NCBI GenBank assembly: GCA_033065855.1
Contig: JAVXUO010002601.1
Span: 806,001 to 870,000, forward strand
Origin: Escallonia rubra
Lineage: Eukaryota; Streptophyta; Magnoliopsida; Escalloniales; Escalloniaceae
Direction of reading: 5' to 3'
Length of the DNA stretch: 64,000 nucleotides
In this document: positions 540 to 55,310 of the stretch, piece by piece
Position numbering within the stretch: the first letter of the stretch is position 1
Layout of the letters: each line of letters opens with the position of its first letter
The notes under the pieces: model-generated
The model's input: the letters and a program-made list of their open reading frames with translations, nothing else
What the model was told of the DNA's origin: nothing
The model's database searches: none
Program-made: the position numbers and the translations under genes

Positions 540-1565
540 TAGTATCAATTCAGTCTTAATGTACATCAATTCTGGCTTGACACGCAAACGAAGCGAGGGC
601 CTTAGCCTCCTTAAGCTATGATTTACTGGCTCTGCAAATACTATAATAATGGAAATTAGAGATCATATAGCAAAAGTCATAAAACATGGTTGCCACCGAG
701 TCCATAATGTCTTCAGTGTCCGAAATCTGAGAGAGTAAAAAGGAAGAGTCAGTATATACATTAATGTGAAGAAGATTTTTTGTTAGGGCCCATTGTGATA
801 TAGTTAGTAGGCCTTTCATAATAGCTGAATAAGAGTCCGATGCTAAGGAAGAAAATGCAGCAGAACCACATCTCTTATGAATTGCAGTCGTACAGGTCAT
901 GCCTATGCCAGTTCTAAGGCTAGACTTGTTGTAAGAAATGGCTAGGAAGATATTTATAGAGTTTCGAAGGTTATAAGAACAAAGAGGGATTTTGGGTTGT
1001 ATGACGAGAGGGTATTGAGAATTATCATATAGATACTTGGTTGTAGGTTTGATATTTCGGAGAGAGGTATTGTAGTTGATTATTCTTTCACCCATAAGGA
1101 TAATCTGTCTGATCGTATTTTCTGGCTTATCGTTAGAGTTTCGAAAGATTTGTTGGTTCCGGTTCAACCATAGGAACCAGATGGTGGAAGCAATGAATGT
1201 ATTGTAGTAAAGATGTTTGTTGGCGGGAGAAGTGTTGTTGAGCCAAGCAATAAGCCAGACTCTAAAGGAGGACCGAAAAAGGTCAGTTTTAACGCCTAGA
1301 GGGCCGCCATACCAAACAGGCCGAACTTGAGGACAAAGAAAGAACAAGTGATCAATAGATTCCTCCTGCAAGTTACACATGGGGCAGAACAGTGAATCGA
1401 TAATTTTGAGTTTATGGAGTTTTTCTCGGGTTGGTAGGCGGTTCCAGAGAATTTTCCAGAAGTGAAAGGTAATTTTATAAGGGATTGGAAGGGACCATAG
1501 GGTGTTTCAAATTGGGGGTTCGATAACATTCCCAACTGAGCTTTGGCCTCGTGCCACTCGTTCAT
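540..1565 (-). pseudogene. LINE zf-RVT and RNase H-like C-terminus (broken)
   Basis: Around 1380-1300 the minus strand encodes CPMCNLQEESIDHLFF and CPQV, the Cys/His pattern of the zf-RVT domain that follows plant LINE reverse transcriptases. An RNase H-like segment follows, with NVYTDSSFLLSQI resembling the V..DS..L motif of the family, and the frame ends near 560 after a stop at about 616. Frameshifts separate the two parts. Both belong to the same dead element as the reverse transcriptase upstream. Confidence 0.8.
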
Positions 1566-2312
1566 TCTGGGAGTTGGAGTATAGAAGGTTATAGGCAGAG
1601 AGCACAGAGAAGTTGCCTGATCGAGTAGATTTCCATAATTTTTGGTCAGCCAAAGGATGTTTGGAAAGGTAAATAGCGAGGATTTGGGTGGCTATGTTAG
1701 GCGGGAAGAGTTCCCGAACCAAAGCAGTATTCCATGAATTTTGGGTAGTAAGATCTTTCACCGATGTAGGATGATGAGGCCGAAGATTTTGAATATCCAA
1801 TATGTGATCCAGATTCTTGCCCAGGCCCAGAATCTAATCATCAGACCAAATATATATTTTTGACCCTGTACCTACTTGCCATTGGAGTCCATGATTTAAG
1901 ACTTGGCAGCCCGCAAGGATACTCCTCCAACCCCAAGAAAAGTTACCAATGTCAAGGCAGTCTTCGAAAACTTGACGGATACAATATTGCCAGTCAGGAC
2001 TCTGGAAAGAAGGTAGTCCGGGTCCGTCAGAATTTTCCAACTTGATTTGGCTAGTAATGCCAAGTTGAAGAGATGTGTGTCCTTAAAACCAAGACCACCC
2101 CTTACTTTTGGAGCACAGAGGGAGTGCCAATTGATCCAATGCATACCTTTTTGGTTATCTTCCCCTGACCAACAGAAGTTGGAAATAACAGAGTTAATCT
2201 GTTTACAAACGTATTTAGGGAAAATATATACATGCATGTGGTATATAAGAAGAGCCGAGAGGGTCGATTGAATGAGAGTTGCACGTCCAGCTTTGTTGAG
2301 AATGATACTTTT

Positions 2313-3437
2313 TCATCCAGCGCATTTTTTTCGAAGCTTTTCAATAAGCTGAAGAAAAAATTCTTTCCGGTGTGTAACGATATCCAGCGTACCACCCAGA
2401 TATTTGCCAAATGAGTCCAAAATTTTGAAGCCTAAGTATTTGGAGACATGCTGATAGAGTACAAGGGTGGATGATGGACTTAAGGTGATGGCTAATTTTT
2501 TATGGTTGATCAATTGTCCTGAAGCTCCGCAGTAAATGTCTAAAAGCTTTTTGATAGCTTTGCAAGACATGTAATTTAGCTCTGAAAAGATCAAGGTGTC
2601 ATCAGCAAAAAATAAATGGTTGATTGGAGAGCTGCGAGGTCCTGCTTTTATGCCATTGATTACTCCTTGTGCCTTAGCTAAGTTCAATGCTGCAGATATA
2701 GCTTCTACACAGAGTATGAAGAGATATGGGGATATCGGATCTCCCTGACGTAACCCACAAGTAGGTTTGAAAACTGATGAATGCGATCCGTTCACTAAAA
2801 TTTGGTAAGAGACTGAAGTTACACAAGTCATAATGAGATTGATCAAATGCCTTGAGAAATTCATTTTTGTGAGCAGTGCTCTCAGGAAAGCCCAGTTAAC
2901 ACGGTTGAAAGCTTTACTCATATCCATTTTGATTACCCCGAGGTGGAGATTGCATGTCCTATGCTTACGAATCTTGTTTGTGAGTTCTTGGGCAATAAAG
3001 AGATTGTCGCTAATGTGGCGTCCATGGACAAAGGCATTCTGTTCTTCAGAAATGAGTAGGTTGAGGACTAGTTTGATCATGTTGGCTAGAGTTTTAGCAA
3101 TCACTTTATATATGGTGTTGCAAAGGGAAATAGGTCTGAAGTCATCTGCATTTGACGGTGAAGGTACTTTAGGGATGAGCACAATAAATGAGTTATTGGC
3201 CTCTGTAAGCATATGCCCCGAGCGAAAGAATGATAGAGCTGTCGCAGTGATTTGTCATTCTAAAAAGTGCCAACAGTGCTGATAGACCACTGCAGGAATA
3301 CCATCATGACCGGGAGCTTTGAGAGGATGAATTTGGAATAAGGCTTGTTTTACTTCTGAAGCAGTATAAGGTCGATTGATCCACTCAGATTGTGCATCTG
3401 AAATCGCGCATGGATTTGCAAAACATTGTTAAGGTTT
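2313..3437 (-). pseudogene. LINE reverse transcriptase domain (broken)
   Basis: The longest intact frame covers 3212-2313 on the minus strand. It shows reverse-transcriptase landmarks: the LIPKV block followed by DFRPISLCN, the KMDMSKAFNRV motif, GLRQGDPISPYLFI, and the catalytic box written here as FFADDTLIF, which fits the [FY]xDD pattern. Upstream, 3430-3213 translates as typical LINE sequence (KAPGHDGIPA) but carries a stop codon and frame change just before the main frame. The catalytic aspartates survive, but the frame is lost on both sides, so I call a pseudogene. Confidence 0.88.
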
Positions 3438-3766
3438 TTGTAAAATTACTACAGTTGAACATTTGATAGTACTTTTTGGCCATTTAGTAGTAAAATTTTG
3501 GGCAAATTACACTTATATCCCTGAGGTTTGGGTATAATTACAGTCAAGGACAACGAGTTTCAAAATGTAACATTCCGTGACCAAACACTTTTAAAATGTA
3601 TCAGTCGTGTCCATCCGTTAGGGTTCCATCCAAAAATTGTACTTTTTGTATGATGTCATCAATACGTATTTTTTAAATGACAATACTACCCCTTGTACTG
3701 TATATACTGAATATTTTTAAAAAATTTAAATTAAAATTTCAAGCCTTAATTTAAAGTCACAATTAG

Positions 3767-3958
3767 GATTTTATTGAAACCTTAATTTAGAAATTAGGAT
3801 ATTCTTGAAACCCTAATTTGCAAATTAGGATATTCTTGAAACCCTAATTTGCAAATTAGGATTTTCTTGAAACCCTAATTTGCAAATTAGGATTTTCTTG
3901 AAACCCTAATTTGCAAATTAGGGTTTCAAGAAAACCCTAATTTGGAAATTAGGGTTTT
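3767..3958. repeat. AT-rich 31-bp tandem array with self-complementary units
   Basis: The unit (CTTGAAACCCTAATTTGCAA and following bases) recurs every 31 bp at about 3770, 3801, 3832, 3863 and 3894, and then appears inverted near 3920-3958. Each unit contains AATTTGCAAATT, a perfect palindrome. The array lies inside the left half of the Mutator-like element. Confidence 0.85.
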
Positions 3959-4149
3959 ATGTTCTCTCTCCCATTGCCGGTAAATCTGAAGTCCCCGCCG
4001 ACCGTCGCCTCCCTCCCCCGCCCCCGCCGTCGCAGTCCTTCCTTCCCCGGCCCCTCACCGCCGGCAGCCCCTGTCCACACCATTTTAGTGGTAGTCTTTC
4101 TGGTATTCAGAGGAAACGAGCTTTGGGTGTGCTTGTGCAAACAAAGGCG

Positions 4150-4515
4150 ATGGCGACGGACAGCAAATAAGAGATCCGAATGCTAGAAGCTCCTCATTCC
4201 TACCGACCGACGTGGTCCACCGCAGCCGCAGACGTTATAGATGCACTGCCGTACATCGACGACGACTACGGCGACCCCAAAGTGAAACAAGAGGTGGACC
4301 GGTTGGTCGAAGAAGGAGGAGGCATGCGGGGTGCGGCGTCGGGGAAGGGGAGCAGGCGGGGTGCGGCGCCGGGGAAGGGGAACATGCGAGGTGCGGCGCC
4401 GGGGAAGGGGAACAGGCGAGGTGCGGCGCCGGGGAAGGGAAGCAGGCGGGGTGGGTGGGTGACGGGGAAGGGCGAGGGGGATGCAGATGGGGTGGGGGGT
4501 GTTTTTCTTTTCTGA
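4150..4515 (+). pseudogene. Captured fragment of MOS4/BCAS2/SPF27 splicing-factor gene
   Basis: The frame starting at ATG 4150 reads MATDSK, a stop (TAA at 4168), EIR, and then from 4180 MLEAPHSYRP, followed by DVIDALPYIDDDYGDP and EVDRLVEE. That block is the conserved N-terminus of the plant MOS4/BCAS2/SPF27 proteins, core members of the Prp19/NineTeen spliceosome complex. Homology stops at about 4315, where an intron or the rest of the gene would begin. The frame then runs into a 30-bp GC-rich repeat coding RGAAPGKGN units, to a stop at 4515. The in-frame stop and missing remainder make it a gene fragment, not a working splicing factor. It lies inside the Mutator-like element. Confidence 0.82.
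4326..4445 (+). repeat. 30-bp GC-rich tandem repeat, four copies
   Basis: Four head-to-tail copies of a 30-bp unit start at 4326, 4356, 4386 and 4416, each close to GCGAGGTGCGGCGCCGGGGA plus ten more bases. Thirty bp keeps the frame, so the unit extends the captured MOS4-like frame with a basic Gly/Ala/Lys/Arg repeat. Confidence 0.85.
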
Positions 4516-4708
4516 TTTTCTTTTCTAAAAAGAAACAATGGCATTTAAAAAATTAACTTTCTAACATAAGGGCAATAAAGTCATTTTGTTAAAACCGTTA
4601 GGATTTTTAGGGTTCCGTTTGTCAATGGACACAAGTGTTACATTTTGAAACTTTGTGTCCTCGCGTGTAATTACCCCCAAACCTCAGGGATATAAGTGTA
4701 ATTAGCCC

Positions 4709-5312
4709 TAAAATTTTCTCATTAGGTAATTGTTAAACTGGTATTTGAGCTTTCGCAAGTGTCACTCAAGTAACTGTACGATGACACCTAAGAGACCACT
4801 GAAGTGAAGCTCATTTGCAACCAAAGCATTTACCGTCACAAATACGTAGTAATCCAAGTCTTGTCTCTCTCCAAACTGGAGAATAGTTCCACAAATCGAA
4901 ACCGATCCCAAAATGCAAAGAAATTTGTTCATTAAAAATGGATTAGTTCAGTTACTTTTGTTTCTCCCGAACAATGTTCTTCATGAATTTTAAAGCAAGT
5001 CTCTTGAGATCCTCGTGGTGTCTGAGGTTAGAATATTTCGAGCTGCATCTTAATTTTAAAACTTGACTCACGCTCATGCCCCACTTCTTTTTGAATCAAT
5101 TGCGATTTATTCGGTTTTCGATCCAGCTGACATAATGAACTAGTCAAGACGTTAAACTGTCAATTTACGTCTAGCTCCGTCAACCTATTAACTTAAGTCT
5201 AGTTCGGTTCGATTCAGTTCAGTCCAACAAAAGCTCGAACTAATGAAATATAAGGTCCATAAAATTTCCCTTCACAAATCCCGTCGAATCAGAGAGAGAT
5301 TCAGATTTCAGA
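4709..5312. other. Intergenic, upstream of the reductase gene
   Basis: After the 9-bp target duplication this stretch shows no coding frame or repeat that I can support. It must hold the promoter and leader of the reductase gene starting at 5313, but I see no clear TATA box. Confidence 0.5.
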
Positions 5313-7022
5313 ATGGAGGACGTAGGCGTACTGATGACATGTCCAATGTCGTCCTACCTCGAAGAACATCTCGACAAGCGATTCAACCTCTTCAGGTTCT
5401 GGACCGTCCCTTCCAAGAACCAATTCCTCAGAGAGAATTCCAATCATATCCGTGCAGTAGTCGGCAATACCACATTTGGGGCGGACTCGGAGCTGGTCGA
5501 ATCGCTGCCCAAACTGGAAATCGTGGCGAGTTACAGTGTGGGTCTGGACAAGATTGATTTGGCGAAGTGCAATGAGAGAGGCATCAGGGTCACCAACACT
5601 CCCGACGTGCTGACTGATGATGTTGCTGATCTCGCAATTGGGTTGATATTGGCGACTTTAAGAAAGATTTGCGCGTGTGATGGGTTCGTGAGAAGTGGAT
5701 CGTGGAGGAATGGCGATTTTGAGCTCACAACCAAGGTTTGTCATTTCCCTTCTTTCTTACACACAACCATACACACGCATAAACACTCAAAGAAGTGTCA
5801 ACTTTCAGGCGTTTTCCACTGTTTTCTACTTCCCACATGATGTTAGTTTTTTTCTTTATCATTAACGTGATCCGAATTCGACTTGTTATGCTTGAATTAG
5901 AATGTATATCATAGTGCATGCAATCTACTTCCTGGTCTGGTGAACTGTGGGTTCTTCTCTCCCTCTCTTATAATGGTGAAGCCATCTTGGACTTGGTTGT
6001 TATATCTGGCCATTTCTGGTGGAATGAGGACATAACTGAGAGATAATGAAATGCATTTATGTTTACATTTATCCTCTATTTGCGTTCTACATCCTGTTAA
6101 GCTGAACTGTTGAAAATTCTTAACGTGAACGATCAATTGCTTTGTGAAATTGCAGTGAGAAAGGAAAAGTAGATGCGATTATGCACTTGGATTGTAAAAC
6201 CAAGACTTGTAGGGGCGGCAGCATGTTACTGTTGATTTAGACGTCTCATCTTCTATATCACATAGATGTTCATCGAGTTCGGTACAAAATTCATGCATGG
6301 GGTGCAATATTCCTTGTTCACTCAATTGTCTTCGTACAAAATTCCAAATGCACATGACTTTCTGATAGTGCCGTAATGGACTTTCTAGCAATGCTGGGCG
6401 AATTTGTTGCTTCAAGGTTTATTTTCCAGCATAATTAAGTGCCTTTTATTAGACCTGGGAGTTTGCTTCACATGTCTCTTGTACTACCTTTTCTCTCTTT
6501 CAGTTCAGTGGTAAATCAGTTGGGATTGTTGGATTGGGCAGGATCGGCTCAGCCATTGCAAGGAGAGCTGAAGCATTTGGCTGCCCTATTAGTTACTACT
6601 CCAGATCGAAGAAACCAAATACAGATTATAAATATTACACAAATATCGTCGAGTTGGCTACCAACTGCCAGATACTTCTTGTTGCGTGCGCGTTGACTGA
6701 TGAAACCCGCCGCATAGTCAATCGTGAAGTAATTGATGCATTGGGTCCAAAGGGCATTCTCATCAACATTGGGCGAGGCCAACACATTGATGAACCTGAA
6801 CTTGTTTCTGCATTGCTCGAAGGCCGGTTGGGAGGGGCTGGGCTTGATGTGTTTGAGAATGAACCTGATGCGCCTAAACGATTGTTTGGACTCCAAAACG
6901 TTGTGCTCATGCCACATGTTGGGAGTGACACTCTTGAAACTGGCAAAGCCATGGCAGACCTTGTCATTGCAAACTTGGAGGCACACTTTATGAAGAAGGA
7001 ACTGCTGACTCCCGTTGTTTAA
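5313..7022 (+). CDS. HPPR: Hydroxyphenylpyruvate / hydroxypyruvate reductase (2-hydroxyacid dehydrogenase)
   Basis: Two exons, 5313-5735 and 6504-7022, joined in phase 0 over a GT-AG intron, give 313 residues, the usual length for this family. The N-terminal substrate-binding half ends with [13 protein letters not shown]. Exon 2 opens the NAD(P)-binding half: GLGRIG at residues 151-156 is the dinucleotide motif, and SRSKK at 174-178 suits NADPH. The catalytic trio is visible as Arg232 (INIGRG), Glu261 (ENEPDAP) and His279 (MPHVGS). Family members reduce hydroxypyruvate in a cytosolic photorespiratory bypass, or 4-hydroxyphenylpyruvate on the way to rosmarinic acid and in tyrosine catabolism. 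Sequence alone does not separate these substrates. The ATG at 5313 gives the standard start ([12 protein letters not shown]). Confidence 0.93.
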
Positions 7023-10000
7023 GTGTATTTAGAAGGTATGGATGTTTCTGCCTAACTATAGCGCGTGCTAGCATAGACCATGGTGTGCATCCTTATTGTT
7101 GTTTTTTTTCACTTGCATGAGTTAAAAGGAGAAAACCCATTAAGGCACAGTAGCATCGGAGTAGTGTTCTTCTGCATCTGATAACATTTGCCCTTTGCTA
7201 TTCGCTCCATCCATATAAAATTCCTATTTCTAGTAAATTTTTTCTCTTCTCCTTTTCAACAGTGACACAACAAGATTCCATTCCACAAAGTGTTCTATAG
7301 TTCTGTAATGCAGCTCCTAGGTTGAACTTGCTAGGCATCCATATGTCTCAGTTGGTTGCAATGTACCTAGGAGTCACTGGGAAGAAAATTCTCTGACAAC
7401 ATTACTTACCAAAAAAATTCTCTGACGACACTTGAATGTAGTACGAAGGATGGAAATTGCTGATAATATATAGTCACTGATCAGTCATTTTAATCACTCC
7501 ACTGAGAAACTGTCTGAAGATTTCCGATATAAGCAATATCAAGGATAAAAGTAAGGGTTAATTACACTTAGGTTCCTGGGCTTAAGATGAAATTACACTC
7601 GTGTCAATTTGTTTAAACAAAGCAGTGATGTTCATTAACCAATACTGTTAGTAATTTGGAAGATAGTTGTTGGAATGCCCTTTATCTCTCCTCTTGCTCT
7701 TTGAGTACCAACCAGCACCTGCGCCGGCATCTAAGACCGTCGCCTCCACATCACAGACCACCACCATCACGGCATCACCACCAAGGCACCAACCACAAAC
7801 CACTGCACCACGTCAACACCACCAACCAAAGTTACCGAATTCATTAAAGATCTAGCTAAAAATCTATGGAGATATAAGATCCAAAAATCCACCCCAACAG
7901 TCACACAAATAGAAAAACTGACCCCCACTGCGACACCATTCCTTTTCACCAGCCACCATGTCGTTGCCCAAGCCGGGCTAGAATTCCTGCAGGTTCAGGT
8001 CAAAACCTTGGTGGGTGTTAGTGGAACCTACGTCCACTGATGAGTGATGACGTCACGACATTGCTATAGATGGTGACGCTTCCCTCGTAGTGGTGCCGCT
8101 TGTGACCTCCCAAGGCACTTTCAGTGGGGAAGGACTTGTGGCACATAGAGCCCTCGTGGGTCCTACCCCCATCATTGGGGGTAGCAGCGGCTGTGTATGT
8201 GTTTGTGAGTCCATGTGTGCAGATTTGTGTGTGTGTGTGTCGGTGTACAGATTCGTGTGTGCATTTGTGTGTGCGCAGATTGATGATGGTGGTGTCGTGT
8301 TGGGTGCTGGTGTTAGGGTGGTACGGTGATTGTGGGGGGGTGGTGGTGATGCACTGGTGGTACCATGGTGGCGTTTGGACTTGGTTTTTGGGATTGAAGG
8401 CTAAGATGGGCGAGGTGGTGTTGGAGTCAGGAAATTAAGGTTTAAAAATTATAGTGTTTGCATTCTGTATACAACGTATAAGGACAATAGTAACATCTTG
8501 AAAATACTTATTAATAACACCAACAAGAACTTACACTGCAATCAATGACTGACAGATGAATACGACTGACACAAAAACCTTTTTAAATATTATGTCATTG
8601 ACCATATGCTCACATAATGCGCTCCTTGTAATTCTAAGTTGTCAATAAAAGTTGTAGCGGATCCGACTTGGCCAGCTCTAATAAAACTTGAGTTTGACCT
8701 GTTCATGCAATACACTGGCGAACTCTACAATATCCTCAAGTTTGAGTTGTTTAATTGATGAGTCAATCTCAATCCTGAACAAGTCTCTAACTCAGCACCT
8801 AATGCCCTTGTTACCAACACGGCAAAAAATGAAAATAAAGCCAACAATTTCACCATGTCCCAATTGCTTCAAACTCGAGTGTTTTTTAACTTTATCAGTT
8901 TTTTCTCAAAACCAAACTGAACATAGATAGTTACAGATAAGAAAATACAGGAGGAGGAAAATGGCGGGAATTTTGTGATTTTCTAGATTTAGAACTACAA
9001 ATAAGGCAATAGAGCATTACAACAGGGGTAGAGGATATTTCAAGTCAAAATGTCCCATCTGGATACATGGTATTGGTACCTGCTTCTCGTTTGCTCTTCT
9101 TTCGCATTTGTACAAGTGCCAAAACCAACTCTGAAGTTGGGGAAAGTAACAGATAAGATTGTGTGCGTGTGGGTGTGGGTGTGGGTTTTTTTGGGGGGAG
9201 GGGGGTGGTGGTGACTATGGACATTGAAAGGAGTATGACTTATTGAGGGAGAGATCTTGGAATGCTCTTCTTTTCCCGTTTTGTTGATCTGTGGCACTTC
9301 GCTTTACCCTTCAAAGGAGTTTACATGTAACCAAACGTTCATCATGGAGGCGATGAGGACCCTTTGAAGATGAGAAAGTTCAGGGTTTCCAGTGTGAAAT
9401 AGATGAAAGTTCCTGTAGTATGCGTGAAGAAACACCCGAAGTTTGATCCCACCACGCATTGCCATCCATTTCCATATCTCAGGTCAAACTCCTGTTACTC
9501 AAGACGAGATACTCAGGAAGGAGGAAAACTGTATGAAAGTTCAAACTAGGAAAAAAATCAGATTTTTAGGACAGCAGAGAGGTGGATTACCTTTTTTATG
9601 TGGCCAGCAATGGATTTGCAGTCAACCACATCATAAAGATCCAGAGCTTGAGAAGCAGACGCCATTGCTTGGATCTGCATCTTTGCCGGCATGTCTGTGT
9701 CCTCTACCAAAGCTTTCCCTTCCAACATCTTGTCCACCTCAATCGCTCACTAATGCCTTACTGTGAAGAAAAACCCAGATGGGAGGGACTCTGCTATGTG
9801 AATAGTAATTAGTAAGTAGCTCTTTTGGTTCTTATCTCAAAAACCCGGGGAGGAAGAAAAGTTCTCTGGTTCTTGGCTCTGTTTTCAATAAAGTGAGATT
9901 AAAGGAGGAGGAAAGGGTAATACTAGGATTTTAAAGCACCTCTTTGGCTCCCTCTCGTTCTCATCCATCCCCAGTCAAAAGTAGTCGGTATCTTCCAAAT

Positions 10001-10442
10001 GTGAAGGAACCATTTGGTAGGCATTCTGGTGCTGGCACATAGCCCAATTTTTGTCCTTTTGCCTCCTGACCTGAAGGACCCTTTTGGCTCTATTCTGGAA
10101 ATATCACTCCTCTCTCTCCTTCATGTGGATGATGACGTTTGAAGAGGATAAAGATGGTGAGGCCCAAATTAACCTTATCATGGACTCCTGGATTTTAGTT
10201 ATGATTGCAAGCCAAATTTGCGTTTTAGGTTTGAGCACCTTAGGCCTTGCTGTCAAATATTACTTTGTCCACCTTAATCTCTGAACATATTTTCGTAATC
10301 CGTGGGCTCTCACAGATTATGATCGATCCACGAAACCTCATCACCTTTCATTCCTTTTGTTAGACGGGCACATGGATGCACAAAATTTCTGCACATTTCG
10401 TAGTTATTGCTTTGAGGACCGGCTCTTATTATCCTTCTCATG
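7023..10442. other. Gene-poor intergenic region with simple repeats
   Basis: No gene can be supported here. Near 7556 a segment reading GGGTTAATTACACTTAGG resembles a Mutator-type end, but no matching inverted partner was found. A GT-rich stretch covers about 8185-8350 with a run of alternating GT near 8226-8242, and G/T-rich low-complexity sequence occurs at 9160-9215. Several short open frames (for example 9443-9812 and 10084-10284) resemble no family I know. Confidence 0.5.
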
Positions 10443-10788
10443 TACTCCCTATTTCTCACATAAATCACTTAGTTTGACTTTACATACATCTTAAAGATTT
10501 AAATTATATATTGTGTATTTTTTATTTTACCCTTTAGAAAGAGAGAGTGGGAAGAGAGTGAGCAAAAAAAAAGAAAATTAGTTAGTAGAGTATTAAATGT
10601 GGAGAGATAAATAAAATAAAAAAGTGTAAGAAGGTGGGACATGAGAGAGAGAAAATGAATCGATGGAGTTTTAAATGTGAAGAAAAAAATACAATAAAAA
10701 ATTATAAAATGGATAAATATGTAAGATTAATTTTTGTAGGACGACTCAAAAAGGAAATATGATCAATTTATATGAGACGGAAAAAGTA
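10443..10788. mobile_element. Stowaway-like MITE, degenerate
   Basis: The left end reads TACTCCCTATTTCTCACATA and the reverse complement of the right end reads TACTTTTTCCGTCTCATATA. Both match the common plant Stowaway/mariner pattern TACTCCCTCCGTCCCA, and both ends lie on TA. The interior is AT-rich and non-coding, and the length of about 350 bp is normal for a MITE. The arms have diverged, so the insertion is old. Confidence 0.7.
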
Positions 10789-13700
10789 TTATATGAACCT
10801 CCGACTTTTGAAAGTGTTCATCGACGCACCATTCTGAATATCTCCTCACGACAAAAAATTAGTCTCGGAAAGCCAAATTGACTTTTGTAGAGCGTTTTAG
10901 CAACAATAGCAAAAACATCTCTTTCCGTTTTTTCAAAGCATAACTGTGGTTTTGGCCAGATAACTAGAATGAAGGAATTTTAGACCCAATGACTACTGAT
11001 GTATACTAGGTGATTCTTAGGAGGATGGCGTCTGTAGAGAAGTCTCGGTTCTTTTCTTTTTTAAAATAAAAATAAAAATATATACAACTATATATAAACA
11101 ACTATAAAGCACCGATTTAACCCATGCTCGGTTTCTAGTTAATTATTTGCTCAGTTTGCAATATCAGATTCTTTGGCAGCTAATGCCAGTCCTAGAAGCC
11201 TACAGGCAGCCAAGGATCCACATCCACTGCAAGGACAGCAAACATTGACTCACCCAAACATTGACTTTAGATTTTGGTTTTGCATCCAGATTCATGGTCC
11301 CTCTCTGCACGTTTTCCTTTTTCTTATATACTAATAAAAAACTGTTTCCTTTATTTTCCAAGATAATATTATAAAGTTTGAAAGAAAAGATATCTGCATT
11401 TCACTTGTAAACTAACATAACATATCACTAATAATATAGCTAACGGTAGCCATGTACATTCTATGCATCTCGCCCGTGGCACTGATTGTGTTATGCAATT
11501 ATCTTCTGCGATGGCGTTATTTGCATCACATTGATTCAGGACAGCCTCTGCATCAAGAGTGGTTTGAGGATCAGACTGTTCATGAATTGCACCATCGTTG
11601 TTGAGCTACCACAGCGCGTTTCCCCTCCCTTTTTTGGGTCACTTGCCCCTTCCTCTATGTATATTTTCTGCTTATGTACAGCTGTACTTTGGTTTGAGGT
11701 GTAAAACCTTTTTTTTTTTTTTTTTTTGTTGGTATATATTTCTAAAAAAATCTAAAAAAAAAAAACATATCACTAATAATCATCAATAAGCACAGGAAAT
11801 AAAATATGAGGAAAAAGGACTGGGCTGGCCCATGGATGATGAAACCGTGCTTCGGCAAAAGGAAAAGTTTCTGGCCCATAACCTAGGTCTTAATACAAGT
11901 AGCTTGGGCTTGGGCTTGGGTTTGTAAGACCTGAGCTACCGGCCCAGCCTGTACCACGGCCTACTTACAAGGCTTGCAGAAGAAATGAGAGGACAAAATG
12001 CAAAAGAATGTGCCTAAACTAAAGTTGATCAAACGGTTCTGTCTAACTTATGCCCCACTAATTCATGGATTACAATACCGATTGATTCTTCTATTTTGGA
12101 TTAGAATTCAATTTTTGAGTTTTGTTAGCCGAAAGCTAAAGATTAAAACCAACATCCCCTCCTCCCCGAACGTTTTATTTGGCTTTTTAATTTTCACAAA
12201 AAGATGCTACTAGTGCAACTCTAACGGAAAAGAGTTTATTGTTTTTGTAAATATTTTTTTAAGCAATACTTAGATGCCGTTAGTGATTGATTCTATAAAG
12301 CAGAATTATATGCTTAAATTTTAATCAGAGTTAAAAGTCAAATTTAATCTACTCTAAGCAGAATCACGTTACTGTTTGAAAAAAGTAGTTGTAAACTAGA
12401 TTAAAGTTATAAAAGTATTTGGATAAAAAGTGCTTAAATCAGTTCTACTATGCCAAGATGACCATAGAGGACACTTAATTAATAAATTTCTAATAGGAAT
12501 GTGATGTTCCATTTGTAAATAACTATACTACACAAATAATTATCAAAAAGTTATTTTCGTCCACCTACAAAAGTTATTTATTTTTTACTAAAACATTCAC
12601 GATCTCACATTAGTGCTTATAATACAATAATTTTCTTAAATTAGTTAAAGGATATGAAATGTCCTTTTGTGAGAAATACGAGGATATTATGATAACTGAG
12701 AAGGTGAAACCTGATTATGAGAAAAATTATTATTTCATAATCCTCACTTTCCAGAATTATGAATTTATTAGTTTTGAGCTTTTTGAGGCAAATCAAATCT
12801 CTTAATCTGTTTTGTCAAACACCCGCCAACCTGATTTAATCTAAATTAAATCAGATTTGACTATCCCAAAATCAATCCCAAACATAAATTTAATATGCAT
12901 CCGATCTGATTTGATTTTGTGAAAAATGCGTTTATCCTCGAGAAAAATGCCTAGAGAGTTATCAATGCCATCGAAAAAGTAAAACTTTTGCTTAGACCCA
13001 AACTAAATATCTTATGATTCCCTTCGAGACTGTTTCTTACGGCGAAAAAAAAACTTAATGTAGTAATAATAGCGATGACTTGATGTAATTAAGGGGTGAG
13101 ATGAAAAGATAGTACGACCTTGATCTCCTTTGGTTGGAAAATACCTCAACTTTTTAAAATTTTTCTTGTTTCTTGGATCATATTATATTGATCGCTGTTG
13201 CACAATTTTTTTTTTTAATTTAATTGGTCAGCTGTGGTGCCCTTGGGGAGGAAAGGATTGGGTTTTTTTTTTGGTGGGGGGCTAAGAAGACGGAAGGGGA
13301 TGTGAGGTTACTCAGTCTAATTTGGGTACACAGTAGGTGGGGTCGGGTGCTTAGGTCTAGGCATTTGTTCCTCGGTATAAATGTTCCTCATTCTCATTTT
13401 CTAGCAACAAGGCGTCATTGGTGTATGGAAGTGGCAGTGGAAGGGCATGGAGAGGATTCTTTGTTCGTACCGTGGTCAACTCCAGCTCTGTACCACGACA
13501 TGTAATAGTCCGTAATTGTAATAAGGGTCATGGTATGTTATAACATTATCACTATTATTTCATGTTAAAAATAAAAAGTCAAGAAAGGCTAATTAGTGAA
13601 AACCTTATAACTTTTATGTTATCAATGTCATTCTTTTATTATAAAAAAAAAAAAGAAGAAGAAAAAAGAGAGCATAGTAAATCAGTCACTCGTGAGTGAT

Positions 13701-14000
13701 GATTCTTTAAGGGAACATTAGCAACCTTTCAACTTCAAAAGATCAATAAGAAAATATTGATAAAATACAAATCAAAGGTTTTTTTTTTCTTGATTTAGAA
13801 TCTAGTTAGGTCACTTGTCAAACCCCCTACCTCCAAAAAGGGCAAAAGAAAAGGAAAAACTCCACAAAACTTGCCTAAATGCAATTATTAGTATTAATTA
13901 ACTACTAATAAACAACACGGTTAGTTCCACCCTCTTTTTGTCCCATTTTGGCAAGATAATAATAATAATAATAATAAAAAGCTCTGCCGACACTTATTCC
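10789..14000. other. AT-rich intergenic region
   Basis: No gene can be supported. Poly-T tracts occur at about 11709-11727 and 13200-13216. A run of the word GGGCTT occurs near 11905. An AAT-type microsatellite sits at about 13955-13977. A weak open frame lies on the minus strand near 11430-11600, and another on the plus strand at 13224-13505 with no recognisable domain. Confidence 0.5.
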
Positions 14001-40500: not shown

Positions 40501-43117
40501 GCAGGATGCAGTTTGTTCTCTGCAGCCAGAACATATTTTAATTCCAAATCTTGCTGTTCTGTTGTAAGCAACCCCAATTGCTGCTTCTCAATCTTTGCCT
40601 GACTTGCCCGGAAAAGCTCTAAGTGGGTGCAAATTAAATTAATAATATCCCTGCAGCAATCAGAGCAAATGACTTCCATGTAGGTATATTTACAAGTAAA
40701 TCTCTCAAAGTCAGAGAAACATGGTGGGTAAAATCTCTGCAATTCGAACCTTGTCAAAAGATCTATAAGGTTGATACTTTTCATTCGACGTGAAGCTTCC
40801 CCTAGTACACCATTTATGATCTGCATCAGCTCTTCAGGACCTTGTCTATCAGGAGTTATGCGAGAGTACCAGAGATCCGTCACCCATTCAGAAACTAGAT
40901 GCCTGGTGAAATGATCTATTGCTTCCTCAACAACAGGGGAATTTACTTTTTTTCTCCAATCAGACTTTTGAATGAAATTCTTGGTAACCTCGGGATGTTT
41001 CCTTTGGGAAGAAATGTTCGCCGAGGATGGTTTGCTGTTGTATGCAGCAGCTTTCCTCCGCAAGTCAAAATCCAGAGACAAATAACGAAGGATTGTTATC
41101 AACAAGGCAGCAGCAGGCAAGTTAACCCAAACTGAGGAGCTTGTTACTGAGACAAGTATGGGAGAGTAAGTCACTAAGTTGCACGACGTGACAAATTCCA
41201 TGGTTGACCCATTAAGAACACATTTCTAAAATCCATCCTTAACATATAAACAGTGAGCCTGTTCGACTCTTCAACCAATTCAGCATGAACTGAGCCATTA
41301 AAACCCCGATGTGCCAGGTACATTGGTCTTTGAAGGATACTCACATCATTGAAGAGCTTAGCACCAGATTTTTCAGGAAAAAAAAATAACTAATTGCATA
41401 AAAATATCAGACTATCAGAACCATAAGAGACAAAACAAATTAGTTAGAATAGATAATAAACCTAAAAAGGGTTCAGACATTAAAAAGCACAATAAGCTTC
41501 TCAGTTCTCACTCTCTTTCACAACCTTACAAAGATATAAATCACCAACATGGTCCCAGACCACCACAACCCACCATCAAGTCAGAGGTCAAGTCTTGTTA
41601 GAAATTAGAGGACGTAGCATCTTTTTGGTTTAATATCGTGCGTCTTGTCAGAAATCAAGTTTGTTAAATGCATGTAGAGAGTAACTAAACAAGTTATGCA
41701 TTAAATTAACAAAACAAAAACACAAGGATGATGTTACATGGTTCGGCAAAGCCTATATCTGCATACTTAATTTGATTAGATCCTTTTTGTTTTGTAAGAA
41801 AAGAGAGACCAGAACGACAAAATATTTGAAGTACAGTTGTCTTCTTGTATGATTTATGACGCGTGGATCTCGCTAGATTTTGTGTATGCAGATATAGGCT
41901 TTGCCGAACCACGTAACATCATCCTCGTGTGTTTGTTTTGTTAATTTAATGCATAACTCGTTTAGTTACTCTCTACACAAAATCTAGCGAGATCCACGTG
42001 TCAGAACACAAATCATGCAAGAAGACAATTGTACTTCAAATATTTTGTCGTTCTGGTCTCTCTTTTCTTAGAAAACAAAAAGGATCTAATCAAATTAAGT
42101 ATTATGTCCAAAGGCATGGTAATAACTAATAATATCATTCCAATGGTGAATGCAATATTTTTCAGCTTGTGAGCTCGTCATCAACCATTAGGGCATTCAT
42201 TTTATAGTGTAATACAATAATTGAACACATTTATCAATAAATGTCATCAGTGACCCCAGATGAGGAAAAGTTCACTTGACATCCTAAAGTGTACTTAAAA
42301 ATATTTTCGTAAAATAAACCAACTTCTTAGTGATCGTTGCACAATACAATGAGCATTTCAACCTAAAACGTATCGTGATGCTACTCTGAACTCGTGGAAA
42401 GATGACAAAGTACTCCATAGGTCTTGGATAAGGCTTCAACCGCAAAAGACATAGCAATAAGATCACACACAATATTAACATTAATATTTACTGCCATAGC
42501 CAAGACATAATATATGTCCCTGAAAAAAATTCCGGGACCAGAAAATTGAGCGTATAGCTAAACGATATAGGTATATTACCTTCCGTAACAGGATTCTTTT
42601 TCTTGGATAGTTAATACTTCTGATACTTACAGCGCCTAGATTATGCACCATGGCATAAAAATCCTAACCATAGTCTAAGCCATACAGACCGAAAAGAGTT
42701 AAAACCTACTTCCAACTTTGTAAATAACGACGAGTGTCATCATTTAGAACAGCGTTCTTTACTACGGTATAATGACTTATCACGTCACAAGTTTCTAGTT
42801 TCATGTGTAAAGACCAGCAATGCCGTCAACAGATTCTCCACAGGATAACTAACTCAGTTCATTCCACATTCGCAATATACATACATATAAGCACCGTATA
42901 TACACATGCAAAACCTCAATACCGGTATACAAAATCCAAAGGCAACAGATGAACAGCATAATACTCGACCAAGAGATTGAGAAAAGCTGAAACACTAAAC
43001 ATACTTACAGGACATGAGATAAGACAGTCCGACCACGCATATGATCAGGAAAACAATCCGCTTCTTCGCTTCCTCGACAAGGTCCCGAGCCGAAACCGCC
43101 TGCTTCTGTGTGCTCAT
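34574..43117 (-). CDS. PXA-PX-Nexin_C sorting-nexin-like membrane protein
   Basis: Fifteen exons on the minus strand, in coding order: 43117-43009, 41146-40750, 40650-40473, 40368-40229, 40149-38931, 38833-38733, 38609-38465, 37790-37722, 37644-37599, 37503-37130, 36929-36850, 36759-36624, 35895-35694, 35608-35526 and 34708-34574. Phases agree throughout and give 1137 residues. Two hydrophobic segments lie at about 20-36 and 44-58. A PXA domain follows (about 85-285; HFTRHLVSEWVTDLWYSR), then a long Ser-rich linker, a PX phosphoinositide-binding domain (about 680-775; RRFRHFAELHRRL and PPKHFLS) and a Nexin_C domain (about 925-1120). It resembles Arabidopsis At2g15900/At1g15240. The likely place is an ER or endosomal membrane in lipid-linked trafficking; the exact role is unknown. 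For exon 14 the acceptor at 35609 is used, because the upstream one would leave a 19-nt intron. Confidence 0.9.
41671..42100. repeat. Interlocked inverted repeats (A-B-A'-B') in intron 1 of the PX gene
   Basis: Segment A (41671-41764) is the reverse complement of A' (41884-41976), and segment B (41765-41883) is the reverse complement of B' (41977-42100). The order A, B, A', B' means that the two stems overlap instead of nesting. Segment A contains ATGGTTCGGCAAAGCCTATA, a word like those in LTRs of plant retrotransposons, so this may be a rearranged LTR or TRIM fragment. Confidence 0.75.
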
Positions 43118-52664: not shown

Positions 52665-53110
52665 CGGGGTCAAGTGGACATTGGCCTTGGCCTCCCCCTA
52701 GGGGCGGCCTCGGCCTTCCCCATGCCTAGAGGGTCGGCCTTGGCCTCCAGGAAGGGTTGGCCTCGGCCATATTCCCCCGGTGGTTCACCCCTTTCGCACA
52801 ACCCCATTTTCACACTTTTTTTGCTTCGTACGCTTCATACGTAACTTTGGCACCTTGTTCGTCACATGGGTATGATTCACGTCGACACGCTCATCGTAAC
52901 GCAACTTTCGGATTCTCCATTGCTCATCAAAACACCTACCGTCAGCGCGCCCGAAGTTCACCGAAGGGGGGAGTGGCCTTGGCCTCCCTTCATGGGAGTT
53001 GGTCATTGGCCTCCCTTCATGGGAGTTGGCCATTGGCCTTGGCCACCCCCTAGGGTCGGCCTCGGCCTCCCCAGGGGTGGTGGCCTTGGCCTTCCCCCAA
53101 TTTTGGCCTA
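52665..53110. repeat. Minisatellite-like GGCCTTGGCCTCC repeats
   Basis: Imperfect repeats of GGCCTTGGCCTCCC-type words recur across this interval. A longer near-exact duplication, GGCCTCCCTTCATGGGAGTT, lies at about 52981-53030. It forms the first array of the LTR-like block. Confidence 0.7.
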
Positions 53111-53167
53111 TGGCCTCCCTTCCCGTGCGCACTTGTTTTCTCGAGTCTTTGCACCTCTGTGATGTTT

Positions 53168-53352
53168 ACAGACGTTCGTACATCAACCTCCCGACGTCCG
53201 TCGTGCATCGACCTCGCGACGTTCGTTCGTGCATCAACCTGGCGACGTTCGTTCGTGCATCAACCTGGCGGTGTCCGTCGTACATCAACCTCGTGACGTC
53301 CGTTCGCGCATCACCCTCGCGACGCCCGTCGTGCATCAACCTTGTAACGTCC
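53168..53352. repeat. 25-26 bp tandem repeat, about seven copies
   Basis: Units resembling CATCAACCTGGCGACGTTCG plus five or six bases follow one another from about 53178 to 53350, with small differences. It is the second array in the LTR-like block. Confidence 0.8.
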
Positions 53353-53554
53353 ATTGTCCGTGACCACACCACTCCTGCGATGCCCATCGCCCAAAATTGC
53401 GCGCTACCGCCGAATGAACCGTCGCCGACAACCGCATACCATCACTCCCAACTTTGTCATTACTACATGTTGCATTCATTATCTTGTTATGATAGGTACA
53501 CTCAGCTCACATCCCGTCTTTGGGACCCCCGACGCGCGCCCGTGCACCTTCTTC

Positions 53555-54330
53555 GCGACGTTCTTCGCCGGGCCCGGGTGCCATCCTCATGATACGTGCC
53601 CCGCCACCTAGTATTGCTCCGCGACATTGGTCGTCGCGCCTGCGCGTTATTCTCATGATACATGCCCCGGCACCAAGTATTGCTCTGCGACGTTCGTCGC
53701 CGCGCCCGTGCGCCATCGTCATGATACGTGCCCCGACACCAAGTATAGCTCTGCAACGTTCGTCGCCACGTCCAGGCGACATCCTCATGATACGTGCCCC
53801 GGCACCAAGTATTGCTCTGTGACGTTCGTCGCCGCGTCTGTGCATCATTCTCGTGATACGTGTCCCGACACCAAGTATTGTCTCCGCGATGCTCGTCGCC
53901 GCCCCCGGGAGCCATCCTCATGATACGTGCCCCGGCACCAATTATTGCTCCGCGATGTTCGTCATCTCGTCTGCGCGTTATTCTCGTGATACGTGCCCCT
54001 GGCACCAAGTATTACTCCGCGACGTTCATCATCGCACCACTTTCATAACACGTGCCCCGGCACCAAGTATTGTCTATGCGACGTTCGTCGTCGCGCTCGT
54101 GCGCCACTTCCATGATACGTGCCCCCGGTACCAAGTATTGCTCTGCGACATTCGTCGTCGTACCACTTTCATAACACGTGCTTCGGCACCAAGTGTTGTC
54201 TCCATGACGCTCGTCACCACGCTCGTCCGCCACTTCCATGATATGTGCCACGGCACCAGGTATTGTCTCTGCAACGTTCGTCGCCGCGCCCGTGCGCCAC
54301 TTTCATAACATGTGCCCCAAGCACCAGACA
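53555..54330. repeat. 66-bp tandem array, about twelve copies
   Basis: The word ATGATACGTGCCCCGGCACC recurs with small changes near 53589, 53655, 53721, 53787, 53853, 53920, 53986, 54045, 54112, 54171, 54238 and 54305. The spacing is 66 or 67 bp, with two shorter 59-bp units. Because 66 is a multiple of three, long frames stay open on both strands (for example 53853-54308 plus and 54008-53502 minus); I read these as by-products of the array, not genes. Confidence 0.92.
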
Positions 54331-55310
54331 TTGTCTCGTGCTGTAGGCACTGCGCTCATGCGCCACAATCATGTTACACGCGTCCGGGAGGGGCTCACAA
54401 CCTTATAGCCATCGTCGTCTCAATCACAGGGGGGCTTCGGCCCTCGCACCGGGATGGGCTCACAACCTTATAGCCATCGCCGTCACAATCACGGGGGGCT
54501 CCGGCACGAGGACCCCTCGCAGCGGACTCTGAGCACTGAGCTGCGAGCATGTCCACTCATGTTATTGTTGATCGTCGACACCACCAGGGCAATGACCCAC
54601 GGGTCACTCCGGGACTGGAGCAGGTCCTCGGAGGGCATCGCGCCTAATCCGCCTGGCAGTTGGCTACAGGGGCAACCCTCACCGCTGTCAGGTTCTCTGC
54701 GCGTCTCTTGACGCACCTCGTGGGATTCAGTAAGGGCTTGGACCGGTGGCTGGAGCAACGGGCTTACTCTGATCATGCTACCGCGGTGTGGTCAGTCTTC
54801 TCAGACAGGTAGAGCGACGCTGTACGAGGCAGGCAACGCGAATTTGGGAACCGGCAGTCCAACAGAGAACCGGTATTTTGGGACCCCCTGGTGACGTGTC
54901 ACTCCCAGGGGACGACATGTGGCACTTTATGACATAAGCACATTGTTTCCTATAAATAGTGAACTTTATGACTCAAAAAAGGACTTTTCTTCATTCTCAC
55001 AAAATCGCTTTCTCACTCTAGAATTTGAGAGCTCTTGGATTCTAGAGAGAAAAACACAAAATTAGACATAACTTTGGACCGTAACATTGGACCCCGACTC
55101 GGACCCTGACTTGGACTGTCGACTGCCGGCCCTGTTCGTCTCAGCCTTGTCTTCGTAGCACTGCCAGTCTTCACGGCCTGTCTGGGAAGCCTTGCTCTCT
55201 GCCCTTACTCCGCCCTCACTGTCTCTCACTTTGTATACTTGAAAGCTGACTCGGACTGCAGCCTTTACGGCATCTCCACATAGGTATGAACCCACTTTCC
55301 TTGGCATCAC

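Follow-up and report, generated by a model that had tools for sequence, protein, structure and literature searches.

Mutator-like elements (MULEs) are recognized by target-site duplications of 9-11 bp and by terminal inverted repeats (TIRs) of typically 100-500 bp, with a binding motif of MURA of approximately 32 bp situated within the ends (PMC3310237). Non-autonomous MULEs that lack a transposase and contain part of a known host gene are termed Pack-MULEs. In rice alone, more than 3,000 of them have been reported (PMC13317346; on these elements, both this review and PMC8903248 cite Jiang et al., 2004). Pack-MULEs of rice and maize prefer GC-rich sequence (PMC3310237, PMC4858842), and MULEs supply the 5' ends of monocot genes with GC-rich sequence (PMC4858842). 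The Arabidopsis SPF27/BCAS2 protein is MOS4 (PMC2709443), a core subunit of the NTC/MAC spliceosome complex, with a role in plant immunity within this spliceosome-associated complex (PMC2709443). Among publications on Pack-MULEs and the spliceosome, one deals with a CACTA element carrying gene fragments, and a search for literature joining Pack-MULEs and MOS4 returned none.

In the window, that is, the whole 64,000-nt stretch of Escallonia rubra DNA analyzed here, we have identified a transposon-like element of 1209 bp at 3500-4708, with inverted ends and a perfect 9-bp duplication in its flanks (Table 1). Judging by its sequence, this is very probably a complete, non-autonomous Mutator-like element that belongs with the Pack-MULEs and has captured the 5' end of a MOS4/SPF27 gene, the fragment being most likely passive cargo. 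The identification as a Pack-MULE, based on the ends, the duplication, the Pfam match, and the absence of a transposase match, is well supported, short of proof. A complete Pack-MULE with a MOS4/SPF27 fragment had been proposed in the initial annotation, and its limits prove exact.

Table 1. Features of the element and of the sequence to its left (positions in the window)
Feature	Position	Strand	Basis or remarks
Zinc-binding piece of retrotransposon	619-1506	-	zf-RVT, 8.4e-17; RNase-H-like RVT_3 match below cut-off
Reverse transcriptase piece	2316-3254	-	RVT_1, 2.2e-34
Retrotransposon piece	3258-3428	-	Assigned by eye; no Pfam match
Left 9-bp target-site duplication, TAAAATTTT	3491-3499	.	Sequence comparison
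Left terminal inverted repeat, clear part	3500-3583	+	73 bp ungapped, gapped to 3583; weak continuation to 3682
31-bp tandem array, AT-rich, self-complementary	3761-3958	+	6.4 copies; seven exact telo-box-like motifs AAACCCTAA; predicted hairpin
GC-rich (68%) left inner arm	3959-4085	+	3992-4076 weakly inverse-complementary to 4343-4435
Stretch preceding the first ATG	4086-4149	+	Position alone
MOS4/SPF27 (BCAS2) 5' coding fragment	4150-4314	+	ATG 4150, TAA 4168-4170, Pfam match 4234-4314; probable extent outside 4234-4314
Open frame, 111 codons	4180-4515	+	Second ATG 4180 to TGA 4513-4515; MOS4 block in frame with GC-rich 30-bp array
GC-rich 30-bp tandem array after MOS4 block	4312-4453	+	4.7 copies; tandem-repeat listing
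Right terminal inverted repeat, clear part	4626-4708	-	Alignment; weak continuation to 4539
Right 9-bp target-site duplication, TAAAATTTT	4709-4717	.	Sequence comparison

The two copies of TAAAATTTT match at 9 of 9 positions and each directly adjoins an element end, in line with the duplication length known for MULEs and with the perfect target duplication claimed earlier. Two random 9-mers from the window match by chance with probability 9.0e-6, and the AT-richness of the site makes the true value somewhat higher; on the plus strand of the window TAAAATTTT occurs four times, including both element flanks. We scanned the window for inverted ends flanked by a 9-bp repeat, requiring an exact inverted 12-mer no more than 30 bp from the ends (a condition that diverged elements would escape), a spacing of 200-8000 bp, 9/9 flanks, and an end identity of at least 24/30; the single result was the 3500-4708 element. 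Given the match probability and this sole result, we reject chance inverted repeats.

The ends begin with GGGC(A/T)AATTACACTTATATCCCTGAGGTTTGGG, giving the outline GGGC...GCCC. Without gaps, they are identical at 64 of 73 positions; 32 of the 33 outermost positions agree, as do 32 of the following 40 (Fisher p 0.035, the cut having been chosen post hoc on an alignment already seen); the higher identity at the outermost tips would fit a transposase-binding site. Gapped alignment extends to approximately 84 bp of the left end, and a looser one reaches 183/170 bp, weakly (score 140, whereas none of 300 mononucleotide shuffles exceeds 56). Hence, of the long inverted ends described initially, the ends themselves are real, but their clear part is short, the 100-500 bp typical of MULEs being attained only in the weak gapped alignment, a point against the Pack-MULE reading. 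Arms of 84 bp at 86% and a BLAST match of 82 bp at 88% both extend into the flanks, AAAATTTT being self-complementary. In the left end, an imperfect tandem duplication of approximately 31 bp is seen at about 3556-3615 in the alignment, without a shuffle control, and it may be the reason why the end-to-end alignment weakens past 73-84 bp. This duplication recalls the MULEs whose TIRs are multiple or in tandem (PMC3310237), but here the doubling affects only a short inner segment of one end instead of a whole TIR, and we do not assign the element to this type.

In its overall organization the element is similar to Pack-MULEs, being non-autonomous, with a 9-bp duplication, inverted ends and no transposase match; a GC-rich piece of a host gene is enclosed by its AT-rich ends, and it is located close to the 5' side of a gene. 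It differs from them in the rather short clear part of the ends and in two tandem arrays (31 bp, AT-rich, and 30 bp, GC-rich) occupying much of the interior. When 3500-4708 is translated in all six frames with stops ignored, no transposase family matches at E<=1. The host-gene fragment is recognized by Pfam as BCAS2, and three other matches in the element are weak and below their cut-offs (DUF3447, 0.11; L51_S25, 0.18; TMEM181_GOLD, 0.15).

No second copy of the element is present within the 64-kb window. A lone stretch at 7554-7601, with GGGTTAATTACACTTAGG at 7555, resembles the right end of the element (75% across 48 bp, E 0.005) and has no convincing inverted mate nearby; perhaps, by its sequence, it is a broken relative.

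The BCAS2 match scores 30.3 bits against the curated cut-off of 24.5 (E 3.9e-7) and covers profile positions 2-28 of 206, so the fragment, unlike full MOS4/SPF27/BCAS2, holds only the beginning of the domain. The block regarded as diagnostic in the initial annotation, DALPYIDDDYGDPKVKQEVDRLVEE, is located at 4240-4314 and shares with MOS4/SPF27/BCAS2 the N-terminal block DALPYIDDDYGDP...RLVEE. Comparison with PDB retrieves SPF27 alone (5mqf and others, E 0.07), which agrees with Pfam and is weak by itself. Pattern matches to the fragment in viral and prokaryote contigs, 44 and 459, respectively, contained no confirmed relative, and a plant gene would not be expected there.

The remaining part of a MOS4 gene is not seen at the locus: further BCAS2 matches are absent both from the six-frame translation of the element (E<=1) and from the three forward frames of 4315-13901 (E<=0.1), a one-strand search of 9.6 kb from which short exons could escape. 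An intact MOS4 gene at this locus is therefore rejected within that range, and so is the continuation of 4150-4515 as such a gene, the outcome that had been named as fatal to the Pack-MULE reading. A truncated MOS4 pseudogene, or a piece of a real MOS4 gene, lying between chance inverted repeats would agree with the colinearity of the fragment with the start of the BCAS2 profile; we nevertheless consider it extremely unlikely, as the ends with the 9/9 duplication are the sole such pair in the window scan and enclose the fragment, and neither the element nor the 9.6 kb following it on this strand matches the other 178 profile positions.

The fragment is too short for an SPF27 protein, and the frame of its first ATG closes after six codons. 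The in-frame stop at 4168 pointed out earlier is real and lies in the frame of ATG 4150, but by itself it does not close the conserved block, because an in-frame ATG at 4180 follows; the block could in principle be translated from there. The resulting open frame would encode the MOS4 N-terminal block followed by a decapeptide repeat rich in R, G, and K, and may be read as a new chimeric protein gene, given that the fusion stays in frame across 111 codons and that MULE-derived chimeric putative genes have been reported from rice (PMC4858842). From the sequence features considered, this seems very unlikely: two of the three frames are open over 4180-4512 in the real sequence, at least one frame is open in 334 of 2000 dinucleotide shuffles and exactly this one in 108 of 2000, a competing frame at 4095-4556 is longer (153 aa, with no Pfam match at E<=0.01), and the ORF is preceded by the upstream ATG with its early stop. 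With two frames open and the frame kept in 108 of 2000 shuffles, we have rejected its length as evidence for a gene.

Returning to the Pack-MULE with a most likely passive fragment, the interior is ordered as an AT-rich end and stretch, the 31-bp array, a GC-rich arm, a mixed stretch, the MOS4 fragment, a GC-rich stretch, and an AT-rich end. The GC content is 47-73% in 3959-4512 (68% in 3959-4085, 47% in 4086-4149, 55% in the MOS4 fragment, and 73% in 4315-4512), and this region is bordered by stretches of 19-36%. By its position, 4086-4149 may stem from the 5' untranslated region of the parent gene, captured together with the coding piece. The inverse match between the GC-rich arms has a score of 77 vs. 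at most 71 in 500 dinucleotide shuffles, a narrow pass in a lenient test, as shuffling destroys the 30-bp periodicity, so that we take it as a hint only; the arms may form an extended inner inverted repeat.

In the 31-bp array we observe seven of the nine exact AAACCCTAA motifs of the window, with 1.02 expected in the whole window. A text search of a paper on the telo-box, PMC3022908, found no mention of transposons. The region 3730-3970 is predicted to fold into one long hairpin of -100.5 kcal/mol vs. -41.1 in shuffles (z -13.0); a fold predicted for the entire element, without shuffle control, was left out of the evidence. Rfam gave 0 matches in the window at gathering scores, and bacterial promoter and terminator patterns are uninformative for a plant.

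Capturing elements, maize Pack-MULEs included, have been described in a review as siRNA reservoirs against their donor genes (PMC13317346), and the element could, by analogy, yield small RNAs repressing the parental MOS4 gene, an idea already raised in the initial annotation. The strong predicted hairpin could feed Dicer-like enzymes, and the GC-rich arms, flanking the fragment on both sides, may pair. However, the hairpin is formed by the AT-rich array at 3761-3958, separate from the MOS4 piece, and therefore this structure gives little support for MOS4 silencing. Moreover, the piece is found in the element once and in a single orientation (six-frame Pfam comparison), and therefore only secondary small RNAs would match MOS4; the same review also considers that selection may remove lines with a silenced essential donor. 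We thus regard such repression as improbable, the fragment as passive cargo being the reading that we prefer.

To the left of the element, the minus strand contains interrupted pieces of a non-LTR retrotransposon (616-3428), which by eye looks cut short at about 3428. When the element is removed, no retrotransposon frame is seen by eye to run on across the site, and therefore the element seems to lie beside the retrotransposon piece and not inside its coding part. To the right, there is a D-2-hydroxyacid dehydrogenase frame (PF00389, PF02826) with the first ATG at 5313, 604 bp past the element. It is barely conceivable that the element is a portable regulatory cassette, whose telo-box array and hairpin would alter chromatin or expression of the dehydrogenase, while the frame joining MOS4 and repeats would serve as a decoy N-terminus meddling with the MOS4-associated complex.

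For the Pack-MULE with passive cargo, we suggest the following history. The element would first have acquired the beginning of a MOS4/SPF27 gene of the host, the capture, at some earlier time, probably bringing along some leader sequence. A Mutator-like transposase made elsewhere would then have moved it in trans to the present site, and the insertion, to which the observed ends and duplication point, would have left the 9-bp duplication approximately 0.6 kb upstream of the dehydrogenase frame. At present the element is presumably inactive, and the fragment is most likely carried passively.

The element is ordinary, and nothing indicates a benefit to the host. For now it is a further example among the many known captured gene fragments, elements of this kind being common in plants; it would matter more if the fragment affected MOS4, or if the telo-box array affected the neighboring gene.

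Elsewhere in the window, a large near-palindrome is observed at 41673-42102, the part from 41763 to 42102 matching its reverse complement at 79%; it may represent a foldback or MITE-like element. A cluster of GC-rich tandem arrays is found at 52969-54505, the listed periods including 26, 27, 65, and 66 bp.
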